A program made the translations under genes and the position numbers. Source: Parabacteroides sp. (GTDB taxonomy: Bacteria; Bacteroidota; Bacteroidia; Bacteroidales; Tannerellaceae). From it: DNA of 35,307 nt. Below the pieces are notes generated by a model. It had not been told where the DNA came from. It made no database searches and saw only the letters and a list, made by a program, of their open reading frames with translations. The number at the start of each line of letters is the position of its first letter. Position 1 is the stretch's first letter. The DNA is taken from the NCBI GenBank assembly GCA_022775005.1, contig JALFJR010000005.1, positions 1-35,307 of the forward strand, given 5' to 3'. This document shows, piece after piece, positions 3,108-34,702 of the stretch.

Positions 3108-4285
3108 TTATCCGTTATTCTCCCCCTTCGCTCTTTGTTCCTCAAGCCTTTTAAGGTAAACGTCAATGAAGTCCTCCTCTTTGGAGAGCATGTGCCATAC
3201 GGCCACAAGTATCCTGCGGGCGATGGCCACCTGGATTTTCATCTTGCTTTTTTCTTGACAGTTGTCTGGATGTAGCTGAAGTTGGAGAAGAAACAGTTCC
3301 GGGTTCTTGATGCGGCCCATGCGATTTCTATCAATATTTGTCTGAGATACCTGTTTCCGTGTGTCACTTTTCTGCTTTTGTAGTGTCCGTTGCTGACATC
3401 GTTTCGGGGTTTCAAACCACACCATCCCACTAAGCAGGCTGCCGTGGCGAACATTTTCATGTCTATCCCTGTTTCCGCAATGATAGCCGTGGCTGCGCGT
3501 CCCTTTACTCCGGGGATAGTCTGGAGGCGTTCGTACTGTTTGGGAAAGTGCTCCTTGCAAAGTGCCGTCAGCTCTTTCTGGCATTCTTTTATCTGACGCC
3601 CAACGAGGTCAATCGTTTCTTTTAACTGTCTGAATACGGTCAGGTCAGTCTTGGAGAAGGATGCCGTGACAGCCGCTTTTACGTTCTCCCGCCCGTGCTT
3701 GTTGAGCGTGCGCCCATGGACGAGCTTGACAAGCTCCTCGGGGCATGTCTGCCCCTCGATGATGGCCTTCAGTACAGACTGGTAGCTTTTGCTCTTGGTG
3801 GAGGAGACATAGTTGCTCAGTCTGAACCCGCACCGCTGCAAGGCGGCATCGAGCTTGTTGCAGTTGTAGGTCATGTCCTCATTCAGGTCCATGATACGCC
3901 GGTTGAGCTTGCGCATGTCCTGGGCAATAGGTTCGGGCACGAAACTCCCTTTGATCAGATTCTTCAGGACGCATTCCGCTATCCATTGCGCGTCCTTGAC
4001 ATCGCTCTTCTTGACAGGCAGCTGCTTGATGAAATAAGGATTTACCAGTTTGAGATCCATTGAACCGCAAAGCTCGTTCCACACGGGAACCCAATATACG
4101 GCGGTGCTCTCCATCGCACATTCCGTAACTCCGCGACAAAGCATGTCATCACGCATCTGACGAAGTTCAGGGGTCAGTACCCCGTAGGTTTTCTGAAAAA
4201 TAACGCTCTCGTTATACCCCATGATACAAAGATAAATGCTATCTTTGTGAACATCAAGGTCGGCGACTGTTCGATTCCTGTTCAT
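3108..4285 (-). pseudogene. IS110-family transposase (DEDD recombinase), frameshifted near the C-terminus
   Basis: From ATG at 4285 the frame gives 348 residues to a stop at 3239. The N-terminal DEDD (RuvC-like) domain is visible: D11 and D15 in A-D-L-D-V-H-K-D, E59 in M-E-S-T-A-V-Y-W, and D95/D98 in K-K-S-D-V-K-D-A-Q-W. The C-terminal Transposase_20 domain starts at I-P-G-V-K-G and includes the Ser-bearing S-N-G-H-Y-K-S-R-K and G-N-R-Y-L-R-Q segments. The expected C-terminal tail, reading R-R-I-L-V-A-V-W-H-M-L and Y-L-K-R-L-E-E-Q, is present but in another frame, ending at 3108. The switch falls in a run of six adenines (minus strand, near 3246-3252) and would need a -1 shift. The heptamer there is not in the canonical slippery phase, and the family normally has one open frame, so a disabling mutation or a base-calling error is likelier than programmed frameshifting. 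Confidence 0.8.
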
Positions 4286-33200: not shown

Positions 33201-33334
33201 TAGGCCCGCATTATCATCAAGAAAAGGGATTGGCCTCACCTTGGCATTGGAAGAATATTAAATCACGCATTCCGGCTGCTAATTACCAGATGCTGGATTA
33301 CGGATTGATGGAAGATTTCGATCTGATACAATAG
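30242..33334 (+). CDS. GH106-like glycoside hydrolase lipoprotein (alpha-L-rhamnosidase-related)
   Basis: The 1030-residue protein has a lipoprotein signal ending L-S-V-A-C with Cys23. The catalytic barrel begins with W-N-G-E-V-T-P-E-E-V at 54-63 and includes G-G-A-F-I-H-P-R-P-G-L (76-86), W-I-Y-D-E-N-S-Y-P-S-G-F-A-G-G (114-128), G-I-F-S-D-E-P-N (240-247), and S-E-T-Y-G-G-G-G-W-E (388-397). This pattern is that of the GH106 rhamnosidase-like superfamily; E245 and E389 are the likely catalytic pair. The C-terminal third holds beta-sandwich domains with two galactose-binding-like segments (about 780-870 and 910-1000). Many proteins of this type have not been shown to act on rhamnose, so the exact sugar is open. 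It belongs with the SusC/SusD pair and should act at the cell surface or in the periplasm. Confidence 0.85.
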   Translation: MRVHKIIRNLSGLALIGWLSVACADKRPADSFATLADGFADPASTYRTAPFNVWNGEVTPEEVERTLTELKEAGSGGAFIHPRPGLITEYLGEEWFAGFQTALDWGRQNDLDIWIYDENSYPSGFAGGHVNAQMPESYNQGQGLKLEKCEQLPADVTDYYLILQQQGDQFVDITPNAADYKGKAGSYYLYKKTYYGKSDWYGGFSYVDLLYPGVTEKFIEVTMEGYEKRFKAEFGKQIKGIFSDEPNIQTSGGLRWTPDLFDVFQQKWGYDLKEKLPLLQEEIGDWKHVRHNYFETLLQLFIDRWSKPFHDYCEANNLQWTGHYWEHGWPYLNDGPDNMAMYAWHQLPAIDMLFNQFNEESPVAQFGNVRAVKELRSVANQMGRTRTLSETYGGGGWEDTFKDFKRLGDWEYVLGVNYMNQHLALQTLTGARKYDYPPVFTYHSPWWQDYKLLNDYYGRLSFALSKGEQQNDILVLEPTSTLWCYYSHDQSAEQLSRIGQSFQTFVTQLEQAQVEYDLGSENIIKDHGRVANGQFIVGQSSYKTVVLPPLLEVLNRPTAELLKQFVAEGGKVIDFSQFSLIDGQPDALVAEISQAASVVKEKELTAQVMDQYLREGQPRFEFSGGDLYHQRRQFKDGQLLFLVNSSMDESVEGTVSLAGKSVVQLDAIDGQIYSYPFEAKEGIHLSFDLEPAGSLLLFVSEKALDTYPAPASAACQNKLAAQSTVQVTRLRENALNIDFCDLEIDGVTTRDLHCSQAADQAFKAFGFANGNPWNTSVQYKRNILNRDTFQSGGFKATYRFQVNEAFDYGSMRLVTERPQLFKVKINGTEVKPIPGEWWLDRSFGVYDIAQWVRNGMNEVELSVSPMSIFAEIEPVYVIGDFAVMPEKLGWSISAPVPSLTLGSWKEQHQPFYPWGVAYTRNYVIEDLSRPVAVRLNEWNGTVAEVYVNDQKAGVIGWDPYQLDITSALKKGTNKVEVRVIGSHKNLLGPHYHQEKGLASPWHWKNIKSRIPAANYQMLDYGLMEDFDLIQ

Positions 33335-33486
33335 TTTTCCAGTGATGGATCAGGATAGAAAGAACATTTTCATCATCTTACATAATAGGTTTTTAAAGTT
33401 AGTTTAGGTCAACATGTGGGGAGCTCTTATCGAGGGTTTTGATGGTCCCAAGGCGGGGCTCCCCTTTGTTTTTCTAAATGTAAAGG
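33335..33486. other. Spacer after the GH106-like gene
   Basis: It contains the terminator (33418-33473) and no open frame worth reporting; the hairpin array begins at its right edge. Confidence 0.5.
33418..33473 (+). terminator. Rho-independent terminator after the GH106-like gene
   Basis: GGGGAGC (33418-33424) pairs with GCTCCCC (33458-33464) around a 33-nt loop and is followed by a T-rich run to 33473. It lies 84 bp past the stop codon. Confidence 0.65.
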
Positions 33487-33793
33487 TTTCCGAGGGCTCG
33501 GAAGGTATTTTGCGGAGGGCGTGAAAGTTTCAAACGCCTTTGAAGGTATTTTGCGGAGTGCGTGAAGGTTTCAAACGCCTTTGAAAGCATTTCGCAGAGC
33601 GCGCAGAAGTTTCAAACGCCTTTGAAAGCATTTCGCGGAGCGCGCAGAAGTTTCAAACGCCTTTGAAGGCATTTCGCGGAGCGCGCAAAGGTTTCAAACG
33701 CCTTTGAAGGCATTTCGCGGAGTGCGTGAAGGTTTCAATCGATTTTGAAAGCATTTTGCAATATGTGCGGATGTTTAATGATTTTGGATTAAA
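33487..33793 (+). repeat. Array of 41-bp tandem units, each with a conserved hairpin of changing sequence
   Basis: Hairpins recur every 41 bp at 33487, 33528, 33569, 33610, 33651, 33692, 33733 and 33774. In the five inner units the stem is TTTCAAA/TTTGAAA with loop CGCC. In the first unit it becomes TTTCCGA/TCGGAAG, in the seventh TTTCAA/TTGAAA, in the last TTTAAT/ATTAAA, always in register and still paired. A second small hairpin lies between: CGCG-GAG-CGCG, or TGCG-GAG-TGCG with U-G and G-U pairs on the plus strand. Because 41 is not a multiple of three, the repeat is not coding. Paired changes in both arms mean the structure, not the letters, is kept. Confidence 0.85.
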
Positions 33794-33798
33794 ATGCG

Positions 33799-33806
33799 TA
33801 TCTTCG
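33799..33806 (+). promoter_or_regulatory. Probable -7 element for the DUF6261 gene
   Basis: TATCTTCG differs from TAnnTTTG at one base and lies 65 bp upstream of the ATG. If it is used, the hairpin array ends just upstream of the start of transcription and would act mainly at DNA level or as part of a longer transcript from upstream. Confidence 0.4.
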
Positions 33807-33871
33807 TGCATCCAAGTCATTTGACCTGGTTTAGTATCACTTAATGTTTAATTTAAAAAACAGTAATCCGT

Positions 33872-34702
33872 ATGAAGAAAGTGCTTGAAAGAAAGTATTT
33901 GGGGTTGGCTCGTAATGGCGAGCATTACCACCTGTTTTTGTCGTTGCTGCAATGCGTGACACGCGCGACGGCAGAGGAGTTGAAAATCTTGGCGGTTTGG
34001 TCGGTATTCTCTGACACGCTCGAAAAGGAGAACGAGGCCTACCTCAACAGCCAGAAGTATGAGAACACGGTGCCATTAGGGGAGGCGAACAAGGCGTGCG
34101 ACCAGCGCTTCAGCGCATTCAGTATGAACGTGAAAGCGAAGGCAAAGAGCTACGTGGCAGAGGTGGCCGCGGCGGCCGACCGGATAGCTACGGCGATGGA
34201 GCCTTATAAAGGCGCGGCCCGGAAGGCACATGCCGAGAATATCGCGATGGTGCTGGATATGACGGAGAAGTTGCAGTCGGATAAGTATGCGGCTGACATC
34301 ACGACCTTGGGTTTGACGGCCGATCTGGAAGATCTTCGCCAGTCGGCTATTGTGTTTGACGCCGCGCTCTCGGCGAAAGCGAACGAGCGTTTGGCCCGGG
34401 TGAGCGCCGCGAATATGTTGGAGATCCGCCCCGTGGTGGAGGCGGCATTCTCGGATGTGGCCGATTTGCTGACGGCGATCTACCTCGTGGCAACCTATGT
34501 GGATCAAGACGCAGCGAAGGCGGCGAAGGTGGAGGCGATCATCGACAAGATGAATGCGGAGATCCTCCGCTTGATCGAGACGTTGAACCGCCGAGGCGCG
34601 GGTGCGAAACCGGAGGTTCCTCCTACGGATCCCACCACGCCCGTTGAGCCGGAACCGGAACCAGAACCGGAACCAGAGCCCGAAAATCCGGATGTGGTTT
34701 GA
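33872..34702 (+). CDS. DUF6261 family protein with Pro-Glu repeat tail
   Basis: The 276-residue protein is nearly all helical with no signal peptide. It has E-H-Y-H-L-F near 17-22, K-A-K-A-K-S-Y-V-A-E-V-A near 88-99, and A-L-S-A-K-A-N-E-R near 164-172, in line with the Bacteroidales family DUF6261. The last 30 residues are P-P-T-D-P-T-T-P-V-E-P-E-P-E-P-E-P, a rigid acidic Pro-Glu repeat. The function of the family is unknown. Members are commonly present in several copies per genome from memory, and this one sits beside a hairpin array, which is worth comparing between copies. Base composition is GC-rich like the backbone. Confidence 0.75.
   Translation: MKKVLERKYLGLARNGEHYHLFLSLLQCVTRATAEELKILAVWSVFSDTLEKENEAYLNSQKYENTVPLGEANKACDQRFSAFSMNVKAKAKSYVAEVAAAADRIATAMEPYKGAARKAHAENIAMVLDMTEKLQSDKYAADITTLGLTADLEDLRQSAIVFDAALSAKANERLARVSAANMLEIRPVVEAAFSDVADLLTAIYLVATYVDQDAAKAAKVEAIIDKMNAEILRLIETLNRRGAGAKPEVPPTDPTTPVEPEPEPEPEPEPENPDVV

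Follow-up and report, generated by a model that had tools for sequence, protein, structure and literature searches.

Genes of the DUF6261 family are as a rule preceded by tandem arrays of palindromic DNA, in which the sequence of the unit differs in front of almost every gene while its spacing is held. The array described here, from a 35,307-nucleotide stretch of Parabacteroides sp. DNA (hereafter the window), is one case of this family-wide pattern. The explanation favored here, to which we give about an even chance, is that these arrays are helically phased DNA operator tracks, each private to one gene and presumably bound by the product of that gene or by an HU-like partner. The association with a gene family, as well as a matching class of 21-23-bp arrays at HU-like genes, lay beyond the sight of an earlier note made from the letters of the window.

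Read in steps of 41 from position 33487, the window array comprises seven clear 41-bp units on the plus strand (33487..33773), with a palindrome A in columns 1-18 and a palindrome B in columns 22-38, as obtained from TRF, the unit list and pair counts. TRF reports a period of 41 with 6.2 copies, 89% matches, no indels and a score of 337 over 33501-33756. Eight hairpins at an exact 41-bp spacing had been described in the earlier note; seven of these keep the spacing strictly, whereas the eighth (33774..33793, plus strand; TTTAAT/ATTAAA with an 8-base loop) is degenerate, carries the same letters in the sister species G043 and runs into the promoter region. The placement given there, between a terminator and a DUF6261 gene, is borne out. 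A terminator-like hairpin, GGGGAGC...GGCTCCCC followed by a T-rich run, was recognized by eye at 33416..33475, 3' of a GH106 gene, and forms the left border of the array; a stretch resembling it is also found 5' of a second array in the window's genome (G000:C27). In Bacteroidetes the -7 promoter box is TAnnTTTG, and a promoter-like TATCTTCG with one mismatch to it, accompanied by a weak -33 element, occurs just 3' of the eighth unit (33799..33806, plus strand). This box, placed 3' of the array, is weak, scoring 11.2 on a home-made scale and hence under the cut of 12 used in the promoter survey. A DNA search of 31 genomes with the letters of the array found only its own genome, including the one relative at G000:C27, which precedes a gene resembling by eye a GH97 enzyme. 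A search of 33300-34000 against the Rfam covariance models returned nothing with E up to 1, in agreement with the earlier statement that the array fits no known class of element. Elsewhere in the window, an open reading frame on the minus strand (3239-4285) resembles by eye an IS110-type transposase.

The letters of hairpin 1 change from CCGA/TCGG in unit 1 to CAA(A)/(T)TTG in units 2-7, and it had been claimed that pairing is always kept through such changes. Pairing was scored in 20 units (seven from the window, nine from its ortholog in G043 and four from the second array of G000), the units of one array being copies of each other and not independent witnesses. Of all cells in the two stems, 95.4% are paired, compared with a mean of 92.6% after reshuffling of the 3' letters (reached in 0/500) and only 23-60% once the partner was slid. 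Palindromy is thus largely kept, but not always, with the innermost pair of stem 1 broken in 7/20 units. Cells altered on both sides number eight, a count reached by none of 500 shuffles; stem pairs with a two-sided change amount to 3/13, a proportion reached by 203/500 shuffles, and the covariation signal within the window array is therefore modest.

The gene that follows the array (33872..34702, plus strand) encodes a protein of 276 amino acids with an acidic, proline-rich tail, which matches DUF6261 (Pfam PF19775) at E = 3.5e-21 and 76.2 bits, over the curated cut-off of 27. Its AlphaFold2 model is all-helical, with a mean pLDDT of 92.5; no recognisable DNA-binding domain was seen in it, and its structural matches are generic helical bundles, with no informative relatives. 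The family was found in 22 of 41 genomes searched; G000 has ten copies of it, and as many as 52 were counted in one related genome, of 3.3 Mb.

In G000, the DUF6261 copies are preceded by tandem arrays that are alike in period but unrelated in sequence, and nine such arrays compared with each other gave no match at E 1e-6. The upstream survey started from 80 distinct DUF6261 proteins, of which five were excluded because their upstream DNA was shorter than 300 bp; an array was called when its score at lags 36-47 lay above the 99th percentile of dinucleotide shuffles. A tandem array was detected upstream of 70 of the remaining 75 genes, with a best lag, within that range, of 41 (32 arrays), 42 (31), 40 (4) or 43 (3), that is, 40-43 in 70/70. 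When intergenic gaps were considered, 37 of 39 gaps upstream of DUF6261 genes had an array, all 37 choosing 40-43 even with lags 12-74 open, compared with 11 of 160 among other gaps. The set contained 50 genes but yielded 39 gaps, short gaps and genes missed by the choice of open reading frames having been dropped. Among the gaps located solely downstream of DUF6261 genes, 0/28 had such an array, one of them having a 21-bp array. A later phylum-wide draw of 392 genomes, G000 included, contained DUF6261 in 12. Outside G000, arrays (score >20) were found at 14 of 18 distinct genes, all with a lag of 41-42 out of 12-74, and at 11/15 once three genes from the window's genus were removed; of these 14 arrays, the A+T-rich one at L256 is not above its own shuffles, those at L263 and L264 lie at least 400 bp from the ATG, and those at L260 and L265, from one genome, are nearly identical. 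Genes with no detectable array amounted to 5/75 in the first survey and 4/18 in the phylum-wide one.

Over 61 arrays, the arms of the best palindrome measure about 7 bp and span roughly offsets 2-7 on either side of the axis; its profile reaches 0.69-0.81 at offsets 2-6, compared with about 0.5 in column-permuted arrays, while the center is at null level. A second palindrome lies 20-21 bp away in 23/61 arrays versus 36/305 permuted ones, and on this basis a unit often holds two dissimilar palindromes, separated by about two turns of the helix, and repeats every four turns. A second palindrome about 10 bp away, present in 11/61 arrays versus 25/305 permuted ones, is not explained by this picture. 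Promoter boxes scoring at least 12 occur 25-65 bp 3' of the array in 14/69 genes (reversed control, 2) and 0-45 bp 5' of it in 9/69 (reversed control, 1), with one gene having a box in both zones; 22/69 genes therefore have a strong box in either zone and 47/69 in neither. The features of a tandem operator array, namely palindromic sites, helical spacing and a position beside a promoter, are all found, the last of them as strong boxes at 22/69 genes.

The fixed spacing with free sequence, the helical phasing, the palindromy, the promoter position and the private families together point to cooperative binding of dimers and, probably, to autoregulation. Dimeric proteins seated on palindromes about 21 bp apart would all face the same side of the helix next to the promoter. 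In this scheme, every DUF6261 gene would have its own track, private and fast-changing in sequence but constant in spacing and palindromy, to which its own product, or an HU-like partner with the same peptide tag, would bind cooperatively. Such binding would set the expression of that gene and perhaps that of the small number of other loci whose arrays belong to the same family. Either of the two proteins may read the array, the all-helical model of DUF6261 having no informative relatives. Telling against this reading are the lack of a recognisable DNA-binding domain in DUF6261, the genes at which no array was detected and the 47/69 genes without a strong promoter box in either zone. Of the three readings offered in the earlier note (a structured RNA, binding sites for a dimer and a replication-slippage array), that of dimer binding sites is the best fit.

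The first of those readings holds that the array is transcribed and that its hairpins act as RNA, for example as a 5' leader or as a decoy for a protein. The window array by itself is in line with this: the plus-strand U-G pairs reported for the second hairpin are present in the pair counts, albeit in units that are copies, the non-Watson-Crick stem cells are mostly sense-strand G-U, and folding reaches -89.4 kcal/mol in the sense strand versus -65.1 kcal/mol in the antisense strand. In addition, the nine genes with a strong box 5' of the array would transcribe it. Other arrays, however, prefer antisense folding by amounts similar to the sense preference of the window, and within each array such an asymmetry is multiplied because the units are copies of one early asymmetry. 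Over 69 arrays, the sense strand folds better in 40 and the antisense in 29 (p = 0.37), G-U pairs number 465 versus 461 between the strands, and the sense-antisense difference has a standard deviation of 11.9, near the 10.9 of column-permuted arrays. Both strands fold better than permuted arrays (-0.26 versus -0.20 kcal/mol per base). A cruder count of stem mismatches over all arrays leans slightly towards the sense strand, with G-T at 43, 38 and 28 versus A-C at 34, 25 and 21 under three settings. Strand-specific conservation is therefore seen in the window array and absent from folding across the 69, with a slight G-T lean in the mismatch count. The promoters placed 3' of the array in 14/69 genes, and by the weaker box in the window, also speak against an RNA, as does the lack of an Rfam match. 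On balance, this fits palindromes that are kept as DNA, and an RNA is unlikely, since the strands fold equally over 69 arrays and the arrays flank promoters on either side; a structured RNA is unsupported for the family as a whole, and we consider it quite improbable.

A related proposal is a module similar to type III toxin-antitoxin systems, in which tandem repeats stand directly before a protein gene; here the array would code for an RNA antitoxin of the protein that follows. The resemblance is a general one, consisting of tandem repeats of similar length directly 5' of one protein gene and private to each protein. The DUF6261 fold is nonetheless a different one, all-helical in the model, and the protein of the window gave no match to PADLOC models. 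No title resembling ToxN appeared among the 50 structural matches listed, which by itself rules nothing out. Given also the 14/69 genes whose promoter lies 3' of the array, and arrays that display neither a sense-strand folding bias nor any other family-wide RNA signal, this proposal is very hard to sustain.

Comparison between species has revealed how the arrays change. Eight pairs of orthologs with more than 70% identity were aligned and changes in their palindromes judged by eye. The DUF6261 protein of the window is present in G043 at 98% identity, and its array there has 9+1 units, as opposed to 7+1, a difference of whole units; the palindrome is that of the window except at its center. 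In the four pairs with 98-99% protein identity, the palindromes are retained. In L041 (95.5%) and L011 (86.6%) one palindrome has been swapped throughout the array, and in L037 (87.7%) in all units but the first; the new one is again palindromic in all three, and the period stays at 41-42 despite the swap. In L040 (92%) the palindrome is slightly altered. Where arrays have changed, the orthologs have diverged more in general as well, so co-evolution of protein and array is not separated here from plain divergence. At L035, the sister species differ by one exact unit. The L036 gene and its array are absent from G043, where half a unit remains, which reads as a deletion. On contig C84 of G000 (L212:148-346), the final codons of a DUF6261 gene stand after an array, which is a relic left by the loss of that gene. 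The missing L036 and the remnant at C84 show that the family of genes and arrays undergoes birth and death.

These observations bear on the strongest rival explanation, a minisatellite inherited with the gene, in which slippage homogenises the units and hairpin-guided template switching, known as quasi-palindrome correction, keeps the palindromes, with no binder and little selection. The whole-unit differences between sister species at the window and L035, the changes made in concert across units and the array at C84 that outlives its gene are all as this explanation would have them. Slippage, as already offered in the earlier note, has clearly altered unit number, yet alone it leaves a fixed 40-43 bp with free sequence unexplained; unit length should then drift, whereas the period is 40-43 in 70/70 arrays and 41-42 in 14/14 despite their diverse sequences. 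The separate 21-23-bp class at HU-like genes and the 0/28 downstream gaps of the same genes also argue against it, and we regard a minisatellite as unlikely, although worth weighing.

Related arrays are also dispersed in G000. A scan of 631 kb (20% of the genome, enriched by choice for DUF6261 loci; lags 16-63, score >28) found 14 non-coding arrays at 41-43, 12 at 21-24 and five at other lags, along with five more flagged as coding. Two of the five at other lags (L221 and L222, on C12 and C15) are short low-complexity contigs, wholly repetitive at lag 16 and possibly assembly artefacts. The 41-43 class comprises 15 arrays, counting one flagged as coding through an overlapping reading frame, nine of which precede DUF6261 genes. 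Five of the other six are related to DUF6261-linked arrays, one of them weakly and indirectly, and that at L058:1828 is unrelated. In the 21-24 class, 6/12 arrays are related, directly or via each other, to the six HU-gene arrays compared; the 22-bp arrays L060:7726, L054:8502, L217:2989, L226:10434 and L227:601 are related in this manner to that of L125. Some dispersed arrays, such as the one on C55 between convergent genes, are in non-regulatory positions. The dispersed relatives may be targets, or leftovers as at C84. At L241 (G000:C47), palindrome A matches the L039 family and the other half resembles by eye palindrome B of the window; halves may be exchanged as modules. Dispersal, together with an expansion to 52 copies per genome, would also suit a mobile element or MITE made up of array and gene. 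The one resolved site of presence and absence, in G043, keeps half a unit and reads as a deletion, and mobility of this kind seems a faint prospect.

HU-superfamily genes provide a second class of arrays. Upstream arrays were found at 32 of 61 such DNA-binding genes, 27 of them at 21-23 bp, compared with 36 of 505 control reading frames; 15 of these 36 are at 41-42, the control probably including neighbors that share DUF6261 upstream regions. Examples with 21-23-bp arrays, some of them palindromic, are L120, L125, L140, L153 and L180. The two families are also joined by a peptide tag, ENPDVV, which in the window protein is C-terminal (34682..34699, plus strand). In G000 the pattern has 17 hits, eight in DUF6261 and nine in HU-superfamily genes (eight assigned by Pfam, the ninth by position) and none in any other gene, with a reversed control of 0. 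In three of the eight tagged DUF6261 proteins it lies in an N-terminal insert and not at the C-terminus, and many HU-like genes, mostly of the longer type, are without it. Judged by eye, DUF6261 and HU-like tails are alike in seven of eight species compared: SESPDEI is identical in G017, the tails of G009 end in PVVQ, the likeness is looser in G001 and G010, and DDRPVIE of G031 is shared by one of six HU-like genes read. In the eighth species, G032, the tails are unlike; its DUF6261 proteins (e.g., L095-L100) extend further at the C-terminus, with an ending like YPETITLV, and do not carry the shared tag.

A broader and more tentative possibility is a diversifying two-arm nucleoprotein system in Bacteroidota, in which DUF6261 proteins (41-42-bp arrays) and HU-like proteins (21-23-bp arrays), joined by a species-specific tag, would read private arrays both beside their own gene and in dispersed satellites, with track and specificity diverging together and fast, somewhat in the manner of a recognition system that reads arrays by codes specific to each paralog. 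A large unstudied family, with up to 52 copies in 3.3 Mb, is here paired with an orphan DNA element of fixed spacing and free sequence. The two size classes, which correspond to roughly two and four turns of the helix, make the idea directly testable. Should the neighboring proteins prove to read these arrays, one genome would offer many naturally occurring protein-DNA specificities side by side. This would be the first function for DUF6261 and would tie it, through the shared tag, to the HU-like expansion.

Burroughs, Aravind and co-workers reportedly described in 2017 an HU-HIG expansion of lineage-specific HU-superfamily DNA-binding proteins in Bacteroidetes; proteins of this superfamily share a tag with DUF6261 in G000, and to our knowledge the arrays, DUF6261 and the tag do not figure in that work. 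The iterons of plasmid Rep proteins and partition sites are tandem sites, either palindromic or direct, that recur with helical spacing next to the gene for their presumed binder, and the DUF6261 arrays resemble such iteron and operator arrays in having repeated, helically spaced sites beside such a gene. They differ from iterons in that DUF6261 has no known DNA-binding fold and forms dozens of paralogs per genome, with differing array sequences and one period. The BrickBuilt minisatellite or MITE of Porphyromonas gingivalis consists of intergenic 23-bp tandem repeats with a strain-variable number of units and promoter elements, in one repeat family with a leader, a tail and inverted ends, and neighboring genes for DNA- or RNA-binding proteins are mentioned (PMC4596501). 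In that source, so far as consulted, neither DUF6261 nor arrays private to single genes come up (PMC4596501). The window array does not share the BrickBuilt unit length, its unit being 41 bp by TRF and not 23 bp. The 23-bp unit described for BrickBuilt (PMC4596501), from a related genus, lies within the 21-23-bp class found at HU-like genes.
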